A DNA stretch of 64,000 bases from Streptomyces sp. HUAS CB01 (GTDB taxonomy: Bacteria; Actinomycetota; Actinomycetes; Streptomycetales; Streptomycetaceae). The stretch lies in assembly GCF_030406905.1 (NCBI RefSeq), contig NZ_CP129137.1, forward strand, positions 7,099,501-7,163,500. The letters run 5' to 3'. This document shows positions 35,799-47,090 of the stretch, piece after piece. Made by a program: the position numbers and the translations under genes. The notes beneath the pieces are model-generated. The model did not search any database and was not told where the DNA came from. It saw only the letters and a list, made by a program, of their open reading frames with translations. Within the stretch, counting starts at the first letter, position 1. Every line of letters starts with the position of its first letter.

Positions 35799-37052
35799 TC
35801 AGACCCCGAACGCCTCCGGGTACATGATCATGCCCTGTGGCGCCTCCGGGGAACCGTCCAGCACCATGGCCATCATCGCCTCGTCGGGGACCTCGAAGCC
35901 GGGTCGGATGCCGAGCCGTGAAGCGGGCCCGAATCCGAACCTCGGGTAGTACTCCGGATGACCCAGCACCACGACCAGCCGCTCACCCCGGACCCGGGCG
36001 GCGTCCAGCGCCGCCCGGATCACCGCCGAGCCCGCGCCCTGTCCCTGGTGCTCCGGGGCGGTGGCGCAGGGCGCCAGTGCCAGTGCGGGCTCGCCGCCGA
36101 CCAGGCAACGGGTGAGCAGCGCGTACGCCGCGACGGAGCCGTCGGGCGCCTCGGCCACCCAGGAGAGGCCGGGGAGCCACGCCGAAGGGTCCCGCCGCAG
36201 CGCGTCCACGAGATCCGCCTCGTCCTCCGTGGGGAAGGCGGCGGCGTTGACGGCGTGCACGGCCCGTACGTCGGCGTCCGTCTCCGGCCGGACCCGCCAG
36301 CGCGGGTCCGCGGGCCGCAGCACGTAGCCGGTGTAGCCGTACTCCGCACCGTGGTCACGGCGCACCGCGATCTCCGCCCGGGTGGCCGCCAGGGCGGCGG
36401 TCGTCGCCCGCGTCGCCGTCTCCGGATCGACGGCGGCGGCCCGGGCGCCGAGCGGGCCGTAGTACTCCTGCCAGTCGCTCTCGGGCTGACGGTGCACCCC
36501 GGCGACGTGATAGCCGGCGCCGACCGCCGCGGCCGCGTTGGCCGCCGTCGTGCGCAGCGGACAGTGCTCGTCCCAGAAGGCACGGGCAGCCGGACTCGGT
36601 TCGGCGCAGGTCCACTCGCACTCGGTGAGGACCAGGACGCCGCCCGGTGCCAGCAGGCGCCGCCAGGAGCGCAGCGCCGTGTCGAAGCCGATCGCGTACG
36701 CCGAACCCTCGGCCCAGACCAGGTCGAACGACCCGTCAGGGAAGGGCGGTGCGCCCATGTCGGCGCAGACGGTACGGATGCGGTCGGCGAGACCGCGCGC
36801 CCGGGCGGCCTGCCTCAACTCGTCCAGGAACGGCTCGTGCAGATCCACGGCCGTGACCTCCGCCCCGGCCTCGGCCGCCAGCAGCAGCGCGGCACGGCCG
36901 GGGCCGCAGCCCAGGTCGAGCACCCGCGGGCGCGGAGGCACGGGGCCGGCGAGGGCCAGCAGCCGGCGGGTGGTGTCGTCGGAGCCCGGTCCCTGCCGGG
37001 GCAGCCCGTGGTGCAGGGTGAAGAAGGCGTCACGAAAAGCGTTGTCGGACAA
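35799..37052 (-). CDS. Fusion of class I SAM methyltransferase and GNAT acetyltransferase
   Basis: 417 residues with a TTG start. Residues 1-240 are a SAM-dependent methyltransferase: motif I VLDLGCGPG (44-52), TAVDLHEPFL, and PDGSFDLVWAEGSAY. Residues 252-417 are a GNAT acetyltransferase with the acetyl-CoA P-loop region EHQGQGAGSAVI (about 333-345) and the GFGPASRLGIRPG end. The two are joined by an Arg-rich linker without a gap, so this is a real fusion and not two genes. The palindrome GTTGTC-G-GACAAC overlaps the start codon. The substrates are unknown; the domains may modify the same small molecule in succession. Confidence 0.85.
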   Translation of the reverse strand: MSDNAFRDAFFTLHHGLPRQGPGSDDTTRRLLALAGPVPPRPRVLDLGCGPGRAALLLAAEAGAEVTAVDLHEPFLDELRQAARARGLADRIRTVCADMGAPPFPDGSFDLVWAEGSAYAIGFDTALRSWRRLLAPGGVLVLTECEWTCAEPSPAARAFWDEHCPLRTTAANAAAAVGAGYHVAGVHRQPESDWQEYYGPLGARAAAVDPETATRATTAALAATRAEIAVRRDHGAEYGYTGYVLRPADPRWRVRPETDADVRAVHAVNAAAFPTEDEADLVDALRRDPSAWLPGLSWVAEAPDGSVAAYALLTRCLVGGEPALALAPCATAPEHQGQGAGSAVIRAALDAARVRGERLVVVLGHPEYYPRFGFGPASRLGIRPGFEVPDEAMMAMVLDGSPEAPQGMIMYPEAFGV

Positions 37053-38342: not shown

Positions 38343-39326
38343 TCAGCGGCGGGCGGCCTCCGGGCGGTGCAGCAGCCAGCCCTCCCACGCCGACTCGACC
38401 ATCTCGCGCACACCGCGCGAAGCCGTCCAGCCGAGCTCCTCGCCGATGCGCTCGACCGACGCGACGGCCCGCGCCGCGTCCCCGGGACGGCGCGGCTCGA
38501 CCACCGCCGGCGTGCCGTGACCGGTCACCTCGGCGACGACACGGGCCAGCGTGAGCACCGAGACGCCCTCGCCGCGGCCGACGTTCACCGTGAGGTCGCC
38601 GGCCCCGTCCTGGCCGGCCAGCCGGCGGGCCACGGCCAGATGGGCGTCGGCGAGATCGGCGACGTGGATGTAGTCGCGGACGCAGGTGCCGTCGGGCGTC
38701 GGATAGTCGTCGCCGAAGATCCTCGGGGCGTCACCCCGGGTGATCCGGTCGAAGAACATCGGGACGACGTTGAACACCCCGGTGTCCGCGAGCTCGGGAC
38801 GGGCCGTGCCCGCGACGTTGAAGTAGCGCAGACAGGCGGTGGCGAGACCGTGCGCCCGGCCCGCCGCCCGCACCAGCCACTCGCCGGCGAGCTTGGTCTC
38901 GCCGTACGGGTTGATCGGCACGGCCGGGGTGTCCTCCGTGATCAGCTCCACGTCGGCCATCCCGTACACCGCCGCCGACGAGGAGAAGAGGAACCGCTTC
39001 ACGCCCGCGTCCACGACGGACTCGAGCAGCACGGTCAGCCCGTGGACGTTCTCCCGGTAGTAGCGCAGCGGCTGCTCAACGGACTCGCCGACCTGCTTCC
39101 TCGCCGCCAGGTGCACCACTCCCGTGACCGCGTGCTCGGCGAGGACGCGGTCCAGCAGCTCCCTGTCCAGCAGGGTGCCCCTGACCAGCGGCACCCCCTC
39201 GGGCAGCCGCTCCGCGTTGCCCGTCGAGACGTCGTCGAGCACGACGACCCGCTCCCCGGCGCCGGTCATGGCGTGCGCCACGTGCGCTCCGATGTACCCC
39301 GCCCCGCCTGTGATCAGCCAAGTCAT
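38343..39326 (-). CDS. galE: UDP-glucose 4-epimerase (GalE-type)
   Basis: 327 residues. NAD-binding GGAGYIG at the start; active-site Tyr-x3-Lys in NPYGETK; Ser in FSSSAAVYG. Interconverts UDP-glucose and UDP-galactose or a related pair. It is divergent from the polymer cassette that starts at 39627, and so may supply the sugar nucleotide to the GT2 glycosyltransferase; this is inference from position. A -10-like TAGGGT lies directly before the start, hinting at a short or absent leader. Confidence 0.93.
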   Translation of the reverse strand: MTWLITGGAGYIGAHVAHAMTGAGERVVVLDDVSTGNAERLPEGVPLVRGTLLDRELLDRVLAEHAVTGVVHLAARKQVGESVEQPLRYYRENVHGLTVLLESVVDAGVKRFLFSSSAAVYGMADVELITEDTPAVPINPYGETKLAGEWLVRAAGRAHGLATACLRYFNVAGTARPELADTGVFNVVPMFFDRITRGDAPRIFGDDYPTPDGTCVRDYIHVADLADAHLAVARRLAGQDGAGDLTVNVGRGEGVSVLTLARVVAEVTGHGTPAVVEPRRPGDAARAVASVERIGEELGWTASRGVREMVESAWEGWLLHRPEAARR

Positions 39327-39626
39327 GCCCGCCACCCTAACCAGGCGGCGTCCGGGGCGGCCCTGCCCCAGGGAGCGGGTTTGTGGGGTCGGCCACTGAT
39401 CGACAATGATGATCTCGGTCGCGGCACCGGCGGCCGGTCCCGGTCCGGGCAAGGGACGCCCGGACCGAGGACGAGGCCGGCGGGACGAACGGGAGTGTCC
39501 TCACCGGGAAACCTCAGTGAACTCGTGCTTCCGTTCATCCGATAGCCTCAGCCGACATGCCGCCGCCCGGTCCCGGGCCGAGCCGCCGTGCCCACCCATC
39601 CGATGAGCGCCAAGGAGTGAGTCCGT

Positions 39627-41489
39627 CTGTCGACCGCCATCCTCACCGGTCCGCCGGTACCCGGATCGCCGCTCGAGGGCGATCTGCGGTCGCTGGGCTT
39701 CGACGTACGCATCGCCTCCGGGGCCGACGAGGCGGCTGACCTGCTCGCCGCCGTCCCGGCCGCCGAGCGGGCCGCGCTCGTGGACCCGCGCTTCGTCGGC
39801 CACCTCCACGCACTCCGCCTCGGCCTGACGGACCCCCGCTTCCCGGCCGCCGCGATCCCCGGCGCCGCCACCGCCCGGCCCGAGGCGCGCGCCGCCCTGC
39901 TCGCGGCCCTGCGGCAGGCGGCCCCGCAGTCCGCCGTGCAGTCGTCCCCCGACCCCGCGTCCCCGTCCCCCGGGGCCGCGGCCACCGACACCGTCCCCGC
40001 GGCGGCCGGCGTGCTCCCCGACCTCGTCGCCGATGCCCTCGCCGCCGAGGGCGCCGCTCCGCACCGGCCAGAGCTGGGGACGCTGGTGGCGACCGTGCCC
40101 GGCGACCCCCAGGCCCGCAACGAGGCCCGGCAGGCCGTGGCCGCCGTCGACGACGAGGACGTCCGGCTGCGCTCCGCGGTGAAGGCGCGTGACGGGTTCT
40201 TCACGACCTTCTTCATCAGCCCGTACTCGCGCTACATCGCCCGCTGGTGCGCGCGGCGCGGGCTGACCCCGAACCAGGTCACCACCGCCTCGCTGATCAC
40301 CGCGCTCATAGCGGCCGCCGCCGCGGCCACCGGCACCCGGGGCGGCTTCGTCGCCGCCGGCGTGCTGCTGATCCTCTCCTTCGTCCTCGACTGCACCGAC
40401 GGGCAGCTCGCCCGCTACTCCCTGCAGTACTCCACGCTCGGCGCCTGGCTCGACGCCACCTTCGACCGGGCGAAGGAGTACGCCTACTACGCGGGCCTCG
40501 CGCTCGGCGCCGCACGCGGCGGGGACGACGTCTGGGCCCTGGCGCTCGGCGCGATGGTGCTCCAGACCTGCCGCCACGTGGTCGACTTCTCCTTCAACGA
40601 GGCCAACCACGACGCGACCGGCAACACCAGCCCCACCGCCGCCCTCTCCGACCGGCTCGACAGCGTCGGCTGGACGGTGTGGGTCCGGCGCATGATCGTG
40701 CTCCCGATCGGCGAGCGCTGGGCCATGATCGCCGTGCTGACCGCCGTCACCACCCCGCGGATCGTCTTCTACGCCCTGCTGATCGGCTGCGGCTTCGCCG
40801 CCGCGTACACCACCGCCGGCCGCGTGCTGCGCTCGCTCACCCGCAAGGCCCGCAGGACCGACCGCGCGGCACAGGCGCTCGCCGACCTCGCCGACTCCGG
40901 TCCGGTGGCGGACGGCTTCGCCGCCGCGTTCAAGGGCTTCGCCCGTCGGCTGCCGTCGCTCGCACCGCCCGTGATCGCCGCGCTCGGCGCCGCGGCGGTC
41001 ACCCTCACCGCGTGGCTCGCCCCCTACGGCAGCCCCTGGACGGTCGTCGCCGCCCTCGGCTACGCCCTCACCTCCGGCCTCGCCGTCGCGCGCCCGCTCA
41101 AGGGTGCTCTCGACTGGCTGGTGCCCCCGGTCTTCCGCGCCGCGGAGTACGGCACGATCCTGATCCTCGCCGCCCGGGCGGACGTGAACGGGGCCCTTCC
41201 CGCGGCATTCGGCCTGGTGGCCGCGGTCGCCTACCATCACTACGACACGGTGTACCGCATCCGCGGGGGCACCGGCGCGCCCCCGCGCCGGCTGGTCCGG
41301 GCGGTCGGCGGGCACGAGGGGCGGACCCTGGCGGTCGCGCTGCTGGCCACCCTGCTGGGCGCCCCGCAGTTCACGATCGCGCTGACGGTCCTCGCGGTCG
41401 CCGTGGCACTCGTGGTGGTCGCGGAGTCCGTCCGCTTCTGGGTCTCCTCCGGAGCACCCGCCGTACACGACGAAGGAGAACCCGCATGA
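39627..41489 (+). CDS. Multidomain CDP-alcohol phosphotransferase (DUF5941-like), probable CTG start
   Basis: 620 residues if started at the CTG at 39627. No ATG, GTG or TTG exists in frame between the upstream stop (39618-39620) and a GTG at 39780, yet the sequence from 39627 (STAILTGPPVPGSPLEGDLRSLGFDVRIASG) looks like a real N-terminal domain, and AAGGAG lies 9 nt upstream. From residue 180 on there is a membrane-bound CDP-alcohol phosphotransferase with the full motif DCTDGQLAR...G...DATFD. The C-terminal 250 residues add further membrane helices (DUF5941 type, from memory). The stop overlaps the next start (ATGA). It begins the phospho-alcohol cassette. Confidence 0.85.
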   Translation: MSTAILTGPPVPGSPLEGDLRSLGFDVRIASGADEAADLLAAVPAAERAALVDPRFVGHLHALRLGLTDPRFPAAAIPGAATARPEARAALLAALRQAAPQSAVQSSPDPASPSPGAAATDTVPAAAGVLPDLVADALAAEGAAPHRPELGTLVATVPGDPQARNEARQAVAAVDDEDVRLRSAVKARDGFFTTFFISPYSRYIARWCARRGLTPNQVTTASLITALIAAAAAATGTRGGFVAAGVLLILSFVLDCTDGQLARYSLQYSTLGAWLDATFDRAKEYAYYAGLALGAARGGDDVWALALGAMVLQTCRHVVDFSFNEANHDATGNTSPTAALSDRLDSVGWTVWVRRMIVLPIGERWAMIAVLTAVTTPRIVFYALLIGCGFAAAYTTAGRVLRSLTRKARRTDRAAQALADLADSGPVADGFAAAFKGFARRLPSLAPPVIAALGAAAVTLTAWLAPYGSPWTVVAALGYALTSGLAVARPLKGALDWLVPPVFRAAEYGTILILAARADVNGALPAAFGLVAAVAYHHYDTVYRIRGGTGAPPRRLVRAVGGHEGRTLAVALLATLLGAPQFTIALTVLAVAVALVVVAESVRFWVSSGAPAVHDEGEPA

Positions 41490-42223
41490 TCGGCCTTGTC
41501 CTGGCTGCCGGTGCCGGACGGCGTCTGCGCCCCTACACCGACACCCTTCCGAAGGCCCTCGTGCCCGTGGACGGGGACCTCTCGGTCCTCGACCTGACGC
41601 TGAAGAACTTCAGCGAGATCGGCCTCACCGAGGTCGCCGTCGTCGTCGGCTACCGCAAGGAGGCCGTGTACGCGCGCAAGGACGAGCTGGAGGCCACGTA
41701 CGGCCTGAAGCTCACCCTGATCGACAACGACAAGGCCGAGGAGTGGAACAACGCCTACTCCCTGTGGTGCGCGCGTGACGTCCTCAGGCGGGGCGTGATT
41801 CTCGCCAACGGCGACACCGTGCACCCGGTCTCCGTCGAGAAGACCCTGCTCGCCGCCCGCGGCGACGGCCGGAGGATCATCCTCGCCCTCGACACGGTCA
41901 AGCAGCTCGCCGACGAGGAGATGAAGGTCATCACCGCGGACGGCCAGGGCGTCCGCCGGATCACCAAGCTGATGGACCCTGCCGGTGCCACCGGTGAGTA
42001 CATCGGTGTCACCCTCATCGAGCCCGAGGCCGCCGAGGAGCTCGCCGACGCGCTGAAGGCCACCTTCGAGCGCGACCCCGACCTCTACTACGAGGACGGC
42101 TACCAGGAGCTGGTGAACCGGGGCTTCCAGATCGACGTGGCACCGATCGGCGACGTCAGCTGGGTCGAGATCGACAACCACGACGACCTCGCGAAGGGCC
42201 GGGAGATCGCGTGCCAGTACTGA
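41486..42223 (+). CDS. Nucleotidyltransferase, LicC/sugar-phosphate cytidylyltransferase type
   Basis: 245 residues. The nucleotide-binding signature is GLVLAAGAGRRLRPYTDTLPKAL. NDKAEEWNNAYSLWCARD resembles the LicC choline-phosphate cytidylyltransferase group, as does ILANGDTVHP. It should activate a phosphorylated alcohol or amine with CTP (or another NTP) to give the CDP-alcohol used by the phosphotransferases on either side. Overlap ATGA with the gene before and 13 bp with the gene after show tight coupling. The true substrate (glycerol-, inositol- or choline-phosphate-like) is not readable. Confidence 0.9.
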   Translation: MIGLVLAAGAGRRLRPYTDTLPKALVPVDGDLSVLDLTLKNFSEIGLTEVAVVVGYRKEAVYARKDELEATYGLKLTLIDNDKAEEWNNAYSLWCARDVLRRGVILANGDTVHPVSVEKTLLAARGDGRRIILALDTVKQLADEEMKVITADGQGVRRITKLMDPAGATGEYIGVTLIEPEAAEELADALKATFERDPDLYYEDGYQELVNRGFQIDVAPIGDVSWVEIDNHDDLAKGREIACQY

Positions 42224-43275
42224 CCCGGCTCATCCCGTCGCCGGTCGTCGTCGACATCGGCTGCGGGGCGATGGACGACCTGGCCGGTCTCCTGGCCGAC
42301 CAGCGCATCTCGGCGTCCGGCGAGCTGGCGATCGCGATCAGCAACGGCTCGGGGCAGGCCCTGCGCGAACGGCTGGCACCGGTGCTGCCCGGCGCCGACT
42401 GGTACGAGGTCTCGGACGGCACCATCGACTCGGCGGTCAAGCTGGCCGACGACATCAAGGGCAAGCGCCGCTACGACGCGGTCGTCGGCCTCGGCGGCGG
42501 CAAGATCATCGACGTGGCGAAGTACGCCGCGGCGCGGGTCGGGCTGCCCATGGTCGCCGTCGCCACCAACCTGGCGCACGACGGCCTGTGCTCGCCGATC
42601 TCCATCCTCGACAACGACAACGGCCGCGGCTCCTACGGCGTCCCCTCGCCGATCGCCATGGTGATCGACCTCGACGTGGTGCGCGAGGCCCCGGTCCGGT
42701 TCGTCCGCTCCGGGATCGGCGACGCGATCTCCAACATCTCCGCGATCGCCGACTGGGAGCTCTCCCGCAAGATCACCGGGGAGTCCGTCGACGGCCTGGC
42801 CGCCGCGATGGCCCGTACCGCCGGCGAGGCCGTGCTCCGCCACCCCGGGGGCGTCGGCGACGACGAGTTTCTGACGGTGCTCGCGGAGGCGCTGGTGCTC
42901 TCCGGCATCGCCATGTCGATCAGCGGTGACTCCCGGCCGTCGTCCGGCGCCTGCCACGAGATCAGCCACGCCTTCGACCTGCTCTACCCCAAGCGGGCCG
43001 CCAGCCACGGCGAGCAGGTCGGGCTGGGCGCCGCCTTCGCGATGCACCTGCGCGGCGCCGGGGAGGAGTCCGGCCTGTTCGCCGAGGTCCTCCGCAAGCA
43101 CGGGTTGCCGGTCCTCCCCGAGGACATCGGCTTCTCCGCCGACGAGTTCGTCCGGGCCGTGGAGTACGCACCGCGGACCCGGCCCGGCCGCTTCACCATC
43201 CTCGAGCACCTCGACCTGTCCACCGATCAGATCAGGGACGCGTACGCCGACTATGCCAAGACCATCCGTAGCTGA
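42211..43275 (+). CDS. Glycerol-1-phosphate dehydrogenase-like enzyme (EgsA/AraM fold)
   Basis: 354 residues with a GTG start. NAD(P)-binding GLGGGKIIDVAKYAA; metal ligands Asp in ATNLAHDGLCSP, His in ACHEISHAFD and His in SHGEQVGLG, all as in archaeal and bacterial G1P dehydrogenases. These reduce DHAP to sn-glycerol-1-phosphate; the archaeal form makes the opposite stereoisomer to normal bacterial lipids. Its place between a cytidylyltransferase and a CDP-alcohol phosphotransferase suggests that the product alcohol phosphate is activated and transferred. It overlaps both neighbours (13 and 23 bp). A general iron-containing alcohol dehydrogenase is the alternative. Confidence 0.88.
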   Translation: MPVLTRLIPSPVVVDIGCGAMDDLAGLLADQRISASGELAIAISNGSGQALRERLAPVLPGADWYEVSDGTIDSAVKLADDIKGKRRYDAVVGLGGGKIIDVAKYAAARVGLPMVAVATNLAHDGLCSPISILDNDNGRGSYGVPSPIAMVIDLDVVREAPVRFVRSGIGDAISNISAIADWELSRKITGESVDGLAAAMARTAGEAVLRHPGGVGDDEFLTVLAEALVLSGIAMSISGDSRPSSGACHEISHAFDLLYPKRAASHGEQVGLGAAFAMHLRGAGEESGLFAEVLRKHGLPVLPEDIGFSADEFVRAVEYAPRTRPGRFTILEHLDLSTDQIRDAYADYAKTIRS

Positions 43276-44032
43276 GCTCCGTCCGGTCGTTCACCCCGCG
43301 GGCGTGAAGGACCGGCGCAGTGGCGAGCACTGGGGCGGCCGCCTGTACATGCGCGAGATCTCCCTCCGCATCACCCGCGTCCTGGTCGGCACCAAGGTCA
43401 CGCCGAACCAGCTGACGTACCTGATGACCCTGGCCGGGGTCCTGGCCCTGCCGGCCCTGCTGGTGCCGGGCGTGTGGGGTGCCGTCCTCGGCGTGGTGAT
43501 GGTCCAGCTGTACCTGCTGCTGGACTGCGTGGACGGCGAGGTCGCCCGCTGGAAGAAGCAGTACTCCCTGTCCGGCGTGTACCTGGACCGGGTCGGCGCC
43601 TATCTGTGCGACGCCGCGGTGCTCGTCGGCTTCGGCCTGCGCGCCGCGGACCTGTGGGGAGGCGGGCGGATCGACTGGCTGTGGGCCTTCCTCGGCACCC
43701 TCGCGGCGCTCGGCGCGATCCTGATCAAGGCCGAGACCGACCTGGTCGGCGTCGCCCGGCACCAGGCCGGGATGGAGCCGGTCAAGGACGCGGCGGCCGA
43801 GCCGCGCTCGTCCGGCATGGCGCTCGCCCGCCGGGCCGCCTCCGCGCTGAAGTTCCACCGGCTGGTCCTCGGCATCGAGGCGTCCCTGCTGATCCTGGTG
43901 CTGGCGGTCCTCGACCAGATCCAGGGCGACCTGTTCTTCTCTCGTCTGGGTGTCGCCGTGCTGGCCGGTGTCGCGCTGCTGCAGACGGTGCTGCACCTCG
44001 TGTCCATCCTCGTCTCCAGCAGGCTGAGGTGA
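43253..44032 (+). CDS. CDP-alcohol phosphotransferase
   Basis: 259 residues, ATG at 43253 inside the previous gene. Motif DCVDGEVARWKKQYSLSGVYLDRVGAYLCD shows the D..DG..AR..(8)..G...D...D pattern of this integral membrane family. About six membrane helices. It transfers a phospho-alcohol from CDP-alcohol to an acceptor, releasing CMP. A second member of the family opens the cassette, so two transfer steps, or one transfer and one polymerising step, are likely. Six bases separate it from the glycosyltransferase gene. Confidence 0.92.
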   Translation: MPRPSVAELRPVVHPAGVKDRRSGEHWGGRLYMREISLRITRVLVGTKVTPNQLTYLMTLAGVLALPALLVPGVWGAVLGVVMVQLYLLLDCVDGEVARWKKQYSLSGVYLDRVGAYLCDAAVLVGFGLRAADLWGGGRIDWLWAFLGTLAALGAILIKAETDLVGVARHQAGMEPVKDAAAEPRSSGMALARRAASALKFHRLVLGIEASLLILVLAVLDQIQGDLFFSRLGVAVLAGVALLQTVLHLVSILVSSRLR

Positions 44033-44037
44033 GCCGT

Positions 44038-44910
44038 ATGAAGCTCGGTGCCGTCATCATCACCATGGGCAACCGGCCCGACGACCTGCGCGCCCTCATC
44101 GACTCGGTCGCCAAGCAGGACGGCGACCCCGTCGAGGTGGTCGTCGTCGGCAACGGCGCCCCGGTCACGGGCGTGCCCGACGGTGTGCGCACGGTCGACC
44201 TGCCCGAGAACCTGGGCATTCCCGGCGGCCGCAACGTCGGCATCGAGGCGTTCGGCCCGGGCGGCGGCGACGTCGACGTGCTGCTCTTCCTCGACGACGA
44301 CGGTCTGCTGCCGAAGACCGACACCGCCGAGCTGGTGCGCCGGGCGTTCGAGGAGGACCCCGCCCTCGGGATCGTCAGCTTCCGCATCGCCGACCCGGAC
44401 ACCGGCCTCACCCAGCGCCGGCACGTCCCGCGGCTGCGGGCGTCCGACCCGATGCGCTCCTCGCGCGTCACGACCTTCCTCGGCGGTGCGAACGCGGTGC
44501 GCACGAAGGTGCTGGAACAGGTCGGCGGGCTGCCGGACGAGTTCTTCTACGCCCACGAGGAGACCGACCTCGCCTGGCGGGCCCTCGACGCGGGCTGGAT
44601 GATCGACTACCGCTCCGACATGGTGCTGCACCACCCGACGACCCCGCCCTCCCGGCACGCGGTCTACCACCGCATGGTGGCCCGCAACAGGGTGTGGCTG
44701 GCCCGTCGCAACCTGCCCGCGCCCCTGGTGCCCGTCTACCTCGGGGTGTGGATCCTGCTGACTCTCCTCAGGCGGCCCTCGGCCGCGGCCCTCAGGGCAT
44801 GGTTCGGCGGCTTCAAGGAGGGCTGGACCACCCCGTGCGGGCCCCGCCGTCCCATGAAGTGGCGTACCGTGTGGCGACTGACGCGACTGGGCCGACCGCC
44901 TGTCGTCTGA
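44038..44910 (+). CDS. GT2-family glycosyltransferase
   Basis: 290 residues. Fold GT-A: GAVIITMGNRPDDLRALIDSV, DDDG in LFLDDDGLLP is the metal-binding DxD, FLGGANAVRT and the ED-type motif HEETDLAWRALDAG are family motifs. It would transfer a sugar to the phospho-alcohol lipid or polymer. The C-terminal part has a short hydrophobic segment (VPVYLGVWILLTLLRR) that may fix it to the membrane. ATG at 44038 after GAGGTGAGCC; the ABC exporter follows 91 bp later. Confidence 0.9.
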   Translation: MKLGAVIITMGNRPDDLRALIDSVAKQDGDPVEVVVVGNGAPVTGVPDGVRTVDLPENLGIPGGRNVGIEAFGPGGGDVDVLLFLDDDGLLPKTDTAELVRRAFEEDPALGIVSFRIADPDTGLTQRRHVPRLRASDPMRSSRVTTFLGGANAVRTKVLEQVGGLPDEFFYAHEETDLAWRALDAGWMIDYRSDMVLHHPTTPPSRHAVYHRMVARNRVWLARRNLPAPLVPVYLGVWILLTLLRRPSAAALRAWFGGFKEGWTTPCGPRRPMKWRTVWRLTRLGRPPVV

Positions 44911-45001
44911 CGGTCCGGATCTGAGAGCATCGGGCGTACTCCGGGACCTGGCCGCCACCTGAGGCCCAAGCCGCGCATCTTGAACACGAAAGTCTCGACT
45001 T

Positions 45002-45931
45002 GTGAGTGACACAACCCACGACGGCGCGATCGCCACGAGCGCTCGGCCGTCTCCCGACGACGGTCTGACACCGGCGGAGCTGGCCGCCAAGTACGGCCTG
45101 TCGGTGAGCGGTGCCCGCCCAGGGCTGGTCGAATACGTCAGGCAGCTCTGGGGCCGCTGGCACTTCATCCTGGCGTTCTCCCAGGCGAAGCTGACCGCCC
45201 AGTACAGCCAGGCGAAGCTCGGCCAGCTGTGGCAGGTCGCGACGCCGCTGCTGAACGCTCTCGTGTACTACCTGATCTTCGGCCTCATCCTCGGCGCGGG
45301 CCGCGGGATGTCGAAGGAGGTCTACATCCCGTTCCTGGTGACGGGCGTGTTCGTGTTCACGTTCACGCAGACGTCGGTCATGGCCGGCGTCCGGGCGATC
45401 TCCGGGAACCTGGGACTGGTGCGGGCCCTGCACTTCCCCCGGGCCTCGCTGCCGATCTCGTTCGCGCTGCAGCAGCTCCAGCAGCTGCTGTTCTCGATGA
45501 TCGTGCTCGTGCTCATCGTGGTGGCGTTCGGGAGCTACCCGTCGCTGAGCTGGCTGCTCGTGCTGCCGGCCCTGGGGCTCCAGTTCGTGTTCAACGTCGG
45601 CATGGCGCTGATCATGGCGCGGATGGGCAGCAAGACCCCCGACCTCGCCCAGCTGATGCCGTTCATCATGCGGACCTGGATGTACGGCTCGGGTGTCATG
45701 TTCTCGATCAAGGTGATGCTCGCGGACAAGCCCGCGTGGATCGCCGAGGTCCTCATGTACAACCCCGCGGCGATCTACATGGACCTGATCCGCTTCGCCC
45801 TGATCGACGGGTACGACTCGTCGAACCTGCCCTCGCACGTGTGGCTGGCCGGCGGGCTGTGGGCGCTGCTGCTGGGCGTCGCCGGGTTCGTGTACTTCTG
45901 GAAGGCGGAGGAGCGCTATGGCCGTGGCTGA
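45002..45931 (+). CDS. ABC-2 type exporter permease (TagG/Wzm-like)
   Basis: 309 residues with a GTG start. A 60-residue cytoplasmic N-terminus precedes six membrane helices. QYSQAKLGQLWQVATPLLNALVYYLIFGLIL and FWKAEERYGRG are typical for polysaccharide/teichoic-acid export permeases. It should export the lipid-linked product together with the ATPase encoded next (14-bp overlap). No clear ribosome site is seen before the GTG. A promoter could lie in the 91-bp gap after the glycosyltransferase. Confidence 0.92.
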   Translation: MSDTTHDGAIATSARPSPDDGLTPAELAAKYGLSVSGARPGLVEYVRQLWGRWHFILAFSQAKLTAQYSQAKLGQLWQVATPLLNALVYYLIFGLILGAGRGMSKEVYIPFLVTGVFVFTFTQTSVMAGVRAISGNLGLVRALHFPRASLPISFALQQLQQLLFSMIVLVLIVVAFGSYPSLSWLLVLPALGLQFVFNVGMALIMARMGSKTPDLAQLMPFIMRTWMYGSGVMFSIKVMLADKPAWIAEVLMYNPAAIYMDLIRFALIDGYDSSNLPSHVWLAGGLWALLLGVAGFVYFWKAEERYGRG

Positions 45932-46718
45932 CCACCTCGAGGACCCGCGCGACGCCCGGGTGCCCACCGTCATCGCCGACGACGTGCACATCGTGTACCG
46001 CGTCAACGGCGGCAGCGGCGGCAAGGGCAGCGCGACCGCCGCGCTGAGCCGGATCGTCAAGCGCGACCGCGGGGAGTCCCGCGGCGTCCGCAAGGTCCAC
46101 GCGGTCCGGGGCGTCTCCTTCACCGCCTACCGCGGTGAGGCGATCGGCCTGATCGGCACGAACGGCTCGGGCAAGTCGACGCTGCTGCGCGCGATCGCGG
46201 GCCTGCTGCCCACCGAGAGCGGCAAGGTCTACACCGACGGCCAGCCCTCCCTGCTGGGCGTCAACGCGGCTCTCATGGGTGATCTGACCGGTGAGCGGAA
46301 CGTCATCCTCGGCGGCCTGGCCATGGGCATGTCGCGCGAGGAGATCCGCGCCCGCTACCAGGGCATCGTCGACTTCTCCGGCATCAACGAGAAGGGCGAC
46401 TTCATCACCCTGCCGATGCGCACGTACTCCTCCGGTATGGGCGCCCGGCTCCGGTTCGCGATCGCGGCGGCCAAGAACCACGACGTGCTGATGATCGACG
46501 AGGCGCTGGCCACCGGTGACCGCAAGTTCCAGATCCGCTCCGAGGAGCGCATCAGGGAGCTGCGCCAGGAGGCGGGCACGGTCTTCCTGGTCAGCCACAG
46601 CAACAAGTCGATCCGGGACACCTGCGACCGGGTCCTGTGGCTGGAGAAGGGCGAGCTCCTGATGGACGGCCCGACCGACGAGGTCATCAGGGCGTACGAG
46701 AAGGAGACCGGGAAGTAG
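45918..46718 (+). CDS. ABC exporter ATPase (TagH/Wzt-like)
   Basis: 266 residues, one ABC domain. Walker A GTNGSGKST (about residue 78), signature YSSGMGARLRFA, Walker B DVLMIDEALATGD. The short YSSGM signature and ALATGD are typical for polysaccharide export ATPases. There is no C-terminal carbohydrate-binding domain as in some Wzt proteins, which resembles the simple TagH-like or Wzt short form. It overlaps the permease gene and ends the cassette, followed by a strong terminator. Confidence 0.93.
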   Translation: MAVADHLEDPRDARVPTVIADDVHIVYRVNGGSGGKGSATAALSRIVKRDRGESRGVRKVHAVRGVSFTAYRGEAIGLIGTNGSGKSTLLRAIAGLLPTESGKVYTDGQPSLLGVNAALMGDLTGERNVILGGLAMGMSREEIRARYQGIVDFSGINEKGDFITLPMRTYSSGMGARLRFAIAAAKNHDVLMIDEALATGDRKFQIRSEERIRELRQEAGTVFLVSHSNKSIRDTCDRVLWLEKGELLMDGPTDEVIRAYEKETGK

Positions 46719-46741
46719 CCCGGTTCCCGCAGCGGGCGGAA

Positions 46742-46773
46742 GGGCCCCCGCCGGACCGCTCCGGCGGGGGCCC
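46742..46773 (+). terminator. Strong terminator after the ABC exporter
   Basis: Perfect 14-bp stem (GGGCCCCCGCCGGA / TCCGGCGGGGGCCC) with a CCGC loop, 23 bp after the stop. It separates the phospho-alcohol cassette from the hopanoid operon. Confidence 0.85.
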
Positions 46774-47090
46774 TCGCACGGCCGGCCCCCGCCGGAGCCG
46801 GCCGGGAAGCGGGGCGGACGGAGGTCCGCGCGTAGCCGACCGGCCGTCAGGTCCTGTTCCCTCCGGGGAGGTTGACGGCGCACCGCAGGTCGACTGCGGC
46901 GCGGCCGGTGCCCCGCTGAGAGTGGGGACGAGGTGGAACGTAAGCTGTACCGGTGCTGATTCACGGCAAGTGGGGCGATACGCCCTGAGGGATCCCGGCT
47001 GCCGGGCGGCGAAGCCCCTCGTCGGGACCGGCGGCGTGTCCGAAATAGGATGTATTGGGTCGGCAGTGTAGAACGGGAGATGTGACGGCC
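46774..47090 (+). promoter_or_regulatory. Promoter region of the hopanoid operon
   Basis: The 317-bp stretch has no gene. TAGGAT at 47046-47051 is a good -10 candidate, giving a leader of some 30 nt before the 20-codon leader ORF at 47091. No clear -35 box is visible. GGAACGT at about 46934 could be the -35 of an ECF-type promoter, but I see no matching -10. Confidence 0.4.

Follow-up and report, generated by a model that had tools for sequence, protein, structure and literature searches.

A conserved Streptomyces operon with a predicted route to a surface glycopolymer based on sn-glycerol-1-phosphate

The window analysed here, a stretch of 64,000 nucleotides from Streptomyces sp. HUAS CB01 (contig NZ_CP129137.1, positions 7099501-7163500 of an 8.1-Mb genome), contains seven plus-strand genes, g1 to g7, that span positions 39627-46718 of the window and were delimited by open reading frame (ORF) calls together with Pfam and NCBIfam scans; this operon and its possible product, a surface polymer built on sn-glycerol-1-phosphate (G1P), are the subject of this analysis. 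The genes are predicted to encode a CDP-alcohol phosphotransferase (g1, 39627..41489), a LicC/COG1213-type nucleotidyltransferase (g2, 41486..42223), a dehydrogenase of the sn-glycerol-1-phosphate dehydrogenase (G1PDH) family (g3, 42211..43275), a second CDP-alcohol phosphotransferase with an altered motif (g4, 43253..44032), a GT2 glycosyltransferase (g5, 44038..44910), and the permease (g6, 45002..45931) and ATPase (g7, 45918..46718) of an ATP-binding cassette (ABC) exporter. Neighbouring genes overlap at four junctions (g1/g2 by 4 nt, g2/g3 by 13 nt, g3/g4 by 23 nt, and g6/g7 by 14 nt); 5 nt separate g4 from g5, and 91 nt separate g5 from g6. A first-pass annotation of the same DNA had placed seven genes at about these positions, and all of them are present; its description of the genes as tightly coupled holds for the four overlaps and the 5-nt gap, but not for the 91-nt gap before g6.

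The predicted g3 protein (Fe-ADH_2 family) is of the EgsA/AraM type; it scored 234 bits against the G1PDH model PRK00843 and 88 bits against a glycerol dehydrogenase model. Its PDB matches included the G1PDH chains 4rgq and 4rfl (6e-42), which we take to be those of M. jannaschii, and 5fb3 (1e-34), with all G1PDH-named chains between 6e-42 and 4e-25; chain 3ce9, deposited as a glycerol dehydrogenase, matched at 8.5e-41, and other glycerol dehydrogenases at 1.3e-17 or weaker. When the PDB was ranked by the family profile, 3ce9 came top, the G1PDHs second, and the remaining glycerol dehydrogenases far lower. By bit scores and PDB order, the comparison that the first-pass annotation had suggested, between G1PDHs and other iron-dependent alcohol dehydrogenases, places g3 nearer to the G1PDHs. 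Aligned to 4rgq, g3 has D171 (in SGIGD), H249 (in CHEISH), and H266 (in HGEQ) at the ligand positions, presumably the metal-binding residues; metal ligands had previously been assigned to AHDG, HEISH, and HGEQ, of which the two histidines stand while the aspartate of AHDG is replaced by D171. The counts given below for “named loci” refer to the best 80 of 562 loci, one from Actinospica and the rest from Streptomyces or close relatives; one of them (L089) comes from the same genome as L061 (94 of 95 sampled 60-mers in common) and is not an independent count. Across these loci the metal site reads Asp-His-His in 75/80 and Glu-His-His in 5/80, and the motif [ST]RPxSG is found in 80/80; the SRPxSG stretch of g3 is common to chains 4rgq, 5fb3, and 9h4x. 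The assignment relies both on how the profiles score and on a published G1PDH alignment in which EHN78548, a Streptomyces protein that may be orthologous to g3, stands with EgsA and AraM (PMC5059525, accessible excerpt). A protein search with A1 yielded 5457 relatives among 8000 scored candidates; among the 120 matches listed, none was named outside the Actinomycetota and none was a g2-g3 fusion.

The best PDB sequence matches of g2 were 1jyk (CTP:phosphocholine cytidylyltransferase, LicC) and 4jd0, the latter named as an inositol-1-phosphate cytidylyltransferase in the accessible text of PMC12275187. PF00483 matched above its cut-off; residues R13, K23, and D110 are invariant across 16 sequences and were equated by eye with R16, K26, and D112 of the enzyme described there (PMC12275187, in part). 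The same passages list phosphosugars, phosphocholine, and phosphoglutamine as substrates of COG1213, with phosphoglycerate newly added, and an enzyme of this group for a three-carbon phosphate is already known (PMC12275187). For g2 itself, its relatives and its pairing with g3 suggest CTP as the nucleotide and G1P as the partner, and it may thus be a CTP:sn-glycerol-1-phosphate cytidylyltransferase. The pairing is widespread: g2 was readable with g3 in 79 named loci, with an identical 13-nt overlap in 78 of these 79. Beyond the named loci, 40 stretches were fetched, 6 from Streptomyces, 4 of an Actinospica type, and 29 from other families, the weak homologue L079 being dropped; g2 adjoins g3 in 27 of the 29 loci from other families, and a 28th (L076) is cut at the contig end. 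Of 20 loci taken from the phylum's other classes, a g2-like gene adjoins a g3-like gene in 15, of which 12 belong to a single family (f51) of 14 loci; in L183 the g2-like gene lies 3 kb off, L184 is unclear, and L197 begins at a contig end. Since the g2-g3 pairing is conserved, the substrate of g2 is most likely what g3 makes; the pair is the core of the system and is also found, with no hopanoid genes beside it, in other families and classes of Actinomycetota. In L190 (8679-10323), a second g3-like gene of one genome, which has no g2-like neighbour, overlaps a CDP-alcohol phosphotransferase gene.

The two phosphotransferases, g1 and g4, both resemble the PDB structure 4o6m (E 2.2e-9 and 5.7e-12, respectively). 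The g1 product, of the DIPPS/AF2299 type (PF01066, 39 bits) with a C-terminal DUF5941 region (PF19365, 326 bits), has the complete motif D-x2-DG-x2-AR-x8-G-x3-D-x3-D, and its canonical fourth aspartate is present in 71/80 named loci, the other 9 being unreadable. In g4 (PF01066, 33 bits) this fourth aspartate is replaced by Ala or His; it is absent in 61 of 61 alignment rows (a few genes were fetched twice) and in all 79 readable loci of the 80 named, while the remaining motif and the PF01066 domain are intact, and every readable sequence has an acidic residue four places beyond the lost aspartate (motif D3+8). The g4 protein is therefore a divergent relative of the CDP-alcohol phosphotransferases. 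The fourth aspartate is the general base in the solved enzymes of this family; it is a matter of speculation that g4 uses a different base, or that its acceptor is more acidic, a phosphate for example. The top profiles for both proteins were those of DIPPS and of archaetidylinositol- and phosphatidylinositol-phosphate synthases, all below their cut-offs. An additional enzyme domain at the N-terminus of g1 was considered; this part is poorly conserved (10 rows, 2 of them without coverage), and nothing is claimed for it. Position 39627 holds no ATG, GTG, or TTG; the codon there is CTG, which is probably the non-standard start codon of g1. Across the named loci the start position reads CTG in 55/80 and TTG in 5/80, with the pattern unmatched in 20/80, so that a non-standard CTG start appears to be conserved within a widely conserved operon.

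The g5 glycosyltransferase (PF00535, 48 bits) gave weak MftF/GlfT1-like profile matches below the cut-offs. The ABC-2 permease g6 (PF01061, Wzm/TagG type) matched galactan and capsule exporter permease profiles, likewise below their cut-offs, and the 266-aa ATPase g7 (PF00005, Wzt/TagH type), which has nothing beyond its ATPase domain, was best matched by the NCBIfam profiles TagH (174 bits) and galactan Wzt (150 bits), short of the cut-offs of 320 and 400. The side-by-side permease and ATPase form a Wzm/Wzt (TagGH) exporter pair whose subtype is left below threshold, and the glycosyltransferase and exporter assignments proposed earlier are supported as predictions by the Pfam and NCBIfam results. 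Upstream, a galE gene for UDP-glucose 4-epimerase, described as divergent in the first-pass annotation too, occupies 38343..39452 on the minus strand (TIGR01179, 321 bits against a cut-off of 262). Downstream, a terminator-like plus-strand hairpin at 46741..46774 with a perfect 15-bp stem and a 4-nt loop follows g7; the fold of 46735-46782 reaches -41 kcal/mol (z -4.2), a value equalled by 0 of 200 shuffles. This feature had been called a perfect terminator: the stem is perfect, but a T run is lacking, and the hairpin is not among the entries of a pattern scan. Beyond it, on the 3' side, hopanoid-type genes follow: squalene/phytoene synthase, polyprenyl synthetase, squalene-hopene cyclase, a radical SAM protein, and 1-deoxy-D-xylulose-5-phosphate (DXP) synthase. 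Elsewhere in the window, a single minus-strand ORF at 35799-37052 combines a methyltransferase domain with a following GNAT acetyltransferase domain.

Synteny is maintained across Streptomyces: all seven genes are present in 69/80 named loci, and the remaining 11 lack one or more, five of these being stretches of 12-13 kb in which only g7 is missing. Of the 394 genomes that were sampled from the class, 100 have a g3 homologue, namely 40/40 Streptomyces (the window's own genome included) and 60 others, whose long matches are 47-56% identical; a recently acquired island was set aside as an explanation, g3 being present in 24/24 other members of the genus. Neighbours in the fetched loci were found by phmmer (>40 bits), starting from representatives identified by Pfam, the match of LicD being short, at 35 bits. 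The 29 loci of other families contain g1 in 14, g4 in 17, g5 in 16, exporter genes in 14, LCP ligases in 13, glycerophosphodiester phosphodiesterase (GDPD) genes in 8, TagF-type PF04464 genes in 5, LicD-like genes in 3, and galE in 2. The four Actinospica-type loci share the order galE-g2-g3-g4-g5-g6-g7 with a TagF-type gene nearby in 4/4; their g1 lies before galE in three and beyond the TagF gene in L062. The galE gene belongs with the system: it stands immediately 5' of g2 in all four Actinospica-type loci, in three of which it separates g1 from g2, and it lies near the cassette in 44/80 named loci. Taken together, the neighbours of the core point to glycerophosphate polymers of the cell surface. 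Second g3 copies in Streptomyces (L064, L065, L067, L068) lack g1 and g4-g7, retain g2 in 3/4, have TagF-type genes nearby in 3/4, and in 4/4 adjoin gene clusters whose L064 members match ribosomal protein L21 and Obg in Pfam.

Several observations on individual loci stand on their own. In three loci of one family (L042, L044, L053), the g2-g3 core lies amid a repeated protein family of 12 members, mostly of about 370-480 aa, of which three were scanned and gave no Pfam match, and a LicD-like protein is also found there; L044 in addition has a GlfT2-like galactofuranosyltransferase near the core. Two co-clustering genes follow the Actinospica-type operons (L060, 14101-16250), one of the PF00756 esterase family and one with no Pfam match; they are possible polymer-modifying enzymes. 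A lone g3 stands at a contig start in S. viridiviolaceus (L165, 73-1131), with neither g4-g7 nor a hopanoid gene in the 9 kb downstream. Records titled Microtetraspora glauca and Streptosporangium nondiastaticum (L149, L153) appear among the Streptomyces-type loci, and the gene order of L149 is Streptomyces-like; the names may be wrong.

The distribution of teichoic acid genes was examined in the same 394 genomes, counting as TagF-type any PF04464 match at E<=1e-30 and as strong TagD, the enzyme that ordinarily makes CDP-glycerol, any TIGR01518 match of >=100 bits. PF04464 was found in 93/100 genomes with g3 and in 59/294 without it (Fisher value 1.9e-40, a figure that ignores relatedness), and outside Streptomyces in 55/60 genomes with g3. 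Strong TagD showed the opposite distribution, occurring in 0/100 genomes with g3 vs. 30/294 without it, at a 100-bit cut that was chosen after the scores were seen. The seven g3 genomes that lack PF04464 include the window's own and one other Streptomyces. The window's genome has eight LCP matches, and the classical TagD/TagF pathway was rejected for it (0 TagD candidates, and 0 PF04464 matches at E<=0.01); with TagF missing, g1 and g4 are left as the likely transferases.

In the pathway proposed here, g3 would reduce dihydroxyacetone phosphate (DHAP) to G1P, and g2 would use CTP to turn G1P into CDP-1-glycerol, the mirror image of ordinary CDP-glycerol. The membrane proteins g1 and g4 would then move glycerol-1-phosphate to a lipid-linked acceptor or a growing chain, a job that falls to TagB/TagF elsewhere; g5 would add a sugar, likely galactose because galE often travels with the operon; and g6-g7 would export the product, which would either be ligated to peptidoglycan by LCP enzymes or stay lipid-linked. 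On balance, a probability of roughly 0.6 is assigned to the reading that the operon makes a galactose-linked glycerophosphate surface glycopolymer and uses for it the glycerol phosphate enantiomer of archaea. As a prediction, the sequence from DHAP over G1P and a CDP-alcohol to transfer and export, already outlined in the first-pass annotation, is supported by the g3 scores and the g2-g3 pairing, and the teichoic-like polymer that it had offered as an alternative is supported by the TagF-type, GDPD, LCP, and exporter neighbours in relatives; its archaeal-type lipid and its hopanoid link find no support. A more far-reaching version is put forward tentatively, as a possibility below even odds: Streptomyces and many other actinomycetes would build an sn-glycerol-1-phosphate polymer, anchored in the wall or the membrane, from CDP-1-glycerol; here the G1PDH and LicC-type pair replaces TagD, and CDP-alcohol phosphotransferases polymerise instead of TagF or LtaS.

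A number of findings weigh against the glycopolymer reading. The activities of all seven proteins are predictions, and so are the individual reactions, what g2 acts on, the stereochemistry, the acceptor, the sugar, and how the product is finally anchored. The g3 protein falls under the NCBIfam G1PDH equivalog cut-off (PRK00843, 234 vs. 413 bits) and is for this reason labelled a G1PDH-type enzyme, not a proven G1PDH; that cut-off appears to be narrower than the activity, since of 14 control genomes, four or more of which are archaea, only 3 reach it. No g2 was found beside g3 in L049 and L065, nor a g2-like gene beside the g3-like gene in L182 and L190 of other classes, and L165 has a full flank downstream of g3 but no g4-g7. 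TagF lies inside the fetched stretch in only 5 of the 29 loci of other families, and ribitol-type transferases fall under PF04464 as well. The absence of TagD does not set g3 genomes apart, since of the 59 genomes that have TagF but no g3, 38 likewise have no TagD of >=100 bits; weaker TIGR01518 matches (<=68 bits) occur in 19/40 Streptomyces and in other g3 genomes, and the genomes are related, so that the counts are not independent. The COG1213 enzyme CpgD, tried with G1P, yielded no product according to the accessible text of PMC12275187. The known wall polymers of Streptomyces are given as mainly teichulosonic acid with minor poly(diglycosyl 1-phosphate), neither of which has glycerol (PMC11481543, in part), and no lipoteichoic acid (LTA) is reported for S. 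verticillus in the passages available of PMC3196553.

Among the alternatives, the same architecture could serve another alcohol, with g3 reducing a different phospho-ketone and g2 activating a different polyol or sugar phosphate, so that the product would contain no G1P. The score of g3 below the equivalog cut-off, the range of phosphate substrates listed for the LicC/COG1213 family (PMC12275187, in part), and the resemblance of g1 and g4 to inositol-type phosphotransferases all fit this idea; the motif and metal ligands that g3 has in common with solved G1PDHs, the glycerophosphate-type neighbours (TagF, GDPD) at related loci, the anticorrelation with strong TagD, and the Streptomyces protein EHN78548, possibly orthologous to g3, in the published G1PDH alignment (PMC5059525, excerpt) speak for glycerol and leave it rather unlikely. 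Alternatively, CDP-1-glycerol may be made as proposed and then go into a small headgroup of phospholipid-like or glycolipid kind, such as a glycerophospho-inositol or a glycerophosphoglycolipid, that is flipped by the ABC transporter, with no polymer formed. Against this idea, TagGH/Wzm-Wzt exporters usually carry long lipid-linked glycans, and LCP ligases stand beside the core in 13 of the 29 loci of other families; in its favour, the best profiles of g1 and g4 are, below cut-off, the DIPPS, archaetidylinositol-, and phosphatidylinositol-phosphate synthases, the window's genome lacks a TagF polymerase, and archaeal glycerophosphoinositol synthesis is stated to require CDP-1-glycerol (PMC8262930, in the accessible text). 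Of the two ideas, a headgroup is the less probable.

The main idea of the first-pass annotation, a G1P-based membrane lipid of archaeal type or associated with hopanoids, has become very improbable. It could appeal to the presence of a G1PDH family enzyme near a squalene/phytoene-synthase (hpnC-type) gene in 66/80 named loci, nearly all from Streptomyces, and to a survey that places the genus Streptomyces among the holders of all three archaeal lipid genes (PMC6431249, in part). However, geranylgeranylglyceryl phosphate synthase (GGGPS; PF01884), which archaeal-type lipid synthesis requires as its next enzyme, was found at E<=1e-5 in 0/41 genomes, the window's own included and 25 of the 41 from its genus, in a search that was positive for its controls, B. 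subtilis and four archaea; a membrane lipid of archaeal stereochemistry was rejected on this account. The hpnC-type gene was found in 0/29 loci of other families and 0/4 Actinospica-type loci, even though all of these contain the cassette or its g2-g3 core; the adjacency was unseen in these 33 loci outside Streptomyces, and a hopanoid-linked product was likewise rejected. Moreover, the hairpin separates the two operons, and the Pfam scan found neither a prenyltransferase nor an acyltransferase domain in the cassette proteins. The 14 named loci without an hpnC-type gene comprise 10 stretches of 10-13 kb and four of full length (L089, L132, L133, L150); in L111, one of the short stretches, the polyprenyl synthetase gene is still visible.

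The glycopolymer proposal can be placed beside several known systems. With the TagD/TagF wall teichoic acid pathway of Bacillus and Staphylococcus, the proposed route would share the activation of glycerol phosphate by CTP, its transfer to a lipid-linked acceptor, glycosylation, and export by TagGH; in contrast to that pathway, the operon has a G1PDH-type and a LicC-type enzyme in place of glycerol-3-phosphate and TagD, which predicts the opposite enantiomer, and CDP-alcohol phosphotransferases in place of TagB/TagF, in a genome without TagD or TagF matches. With the AraM/PcrB pathway for archaeal-type ether lipids in Bacillus it would share a bacterial G1PDH that produces G1P, but GGGPS/PcrB was not found in the genomes searched here, and the dehydrogenase is paired with a nucleotidyltransferase. 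The IPCT-DIPPS/AF2299 systems of archaea and thermophiles likewise combine a nucleotidyltransferase with a CDP-alcohol phosphotransferase and are near solved relatives of g1, g2, and g4; they differ in the predicted alcohol, whereas the operon also has a GT2 enzyme and an exporter, and its g4 lacks the fourth motif aspartate. Caulobacter CpgD would be comparable as a LicC-family enzyme that acts on a three-carbon phosphate in an envelope pathway; unlike the prediction for g2, it takes phosphoglycerate (PMC12275187, in part). A further system for comparison is the polyglycerolphosphate LTA of Streptomyces and Thermobifida, a glycerophosphate polymer of actinomycetes that have no clear LtaS orthologues; for its synthesis, tagB/tagF orthologues are the only candidates named in the accessible text (PMC3196553). 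According to the same text, actinobacteria in general are without clear LtaS orthologues, S. hygroscopicus has a polyglycerolphosphate LTA that closely resembles its wall teichoic acid, and a preliminary analysis indicated LTA of the same type in S. coelicolor (PMC3196553).

No paper stating the proposed pathway was found in the open-licence PMC literature. Six exact names for a G1P cytidylyltransferase or CDP-1-glycerol returned 0 papers there; the shorthand “CDP-1-Gro”, which these searches did not cover, does occur in the accessible part of PMC8262930. The presumed S. coelicolor locus tags SCO6750-6758 led to nothing on the cassette in the literature, and a 2026 synteny study describes the gene neighbourhood in Streptomyces as teichoic-acid associated, with no chemistry proposed in the passages available (PMC13118837). 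The predicted variant of glycerophosphate glycopolymer synthesis, with an enantiomeric CDP-glycerol, would be new. That two enantiomeric phosphoglycerol polymers are distinguished by a stereospecific GlpQ is reportedly, to judge by its title, the subject of a 2020 study in the Journal of Biological Chemistry.

The proposal contradicts a published opinion that bacteria probably lack CDP-1-glycerol; with g3 in 40/40 Streptomyces of the class sample, it predicts that this compound is common in a bacterial group that is among the best studied. If the proposal is true, some bacteria use an “archaeal” building block for their cell surface, and the operon points to a CDP-alcohol phosphotransferase, g4, with a rebuilt active site. 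It would also give a function to the actinobacterial G1PDHs that enter arguments on the lipid divide (PMC6431249, in part), and name specific genes for the making of polyglycerolphosphate, so far unsolved, in actinomycetes that have no clear LtaS orthologues (PMC3196553, in part). Should the more tentative reading of an anchored G1P polymer hold as well, the “archaeal” G1PDH of actinobacteria would be a wall-polymer enzyme, neither a relic nor a token of archaeal lipids. The operon would in that case supply the route to actinomycete lipoteichoic acid that has been missing.

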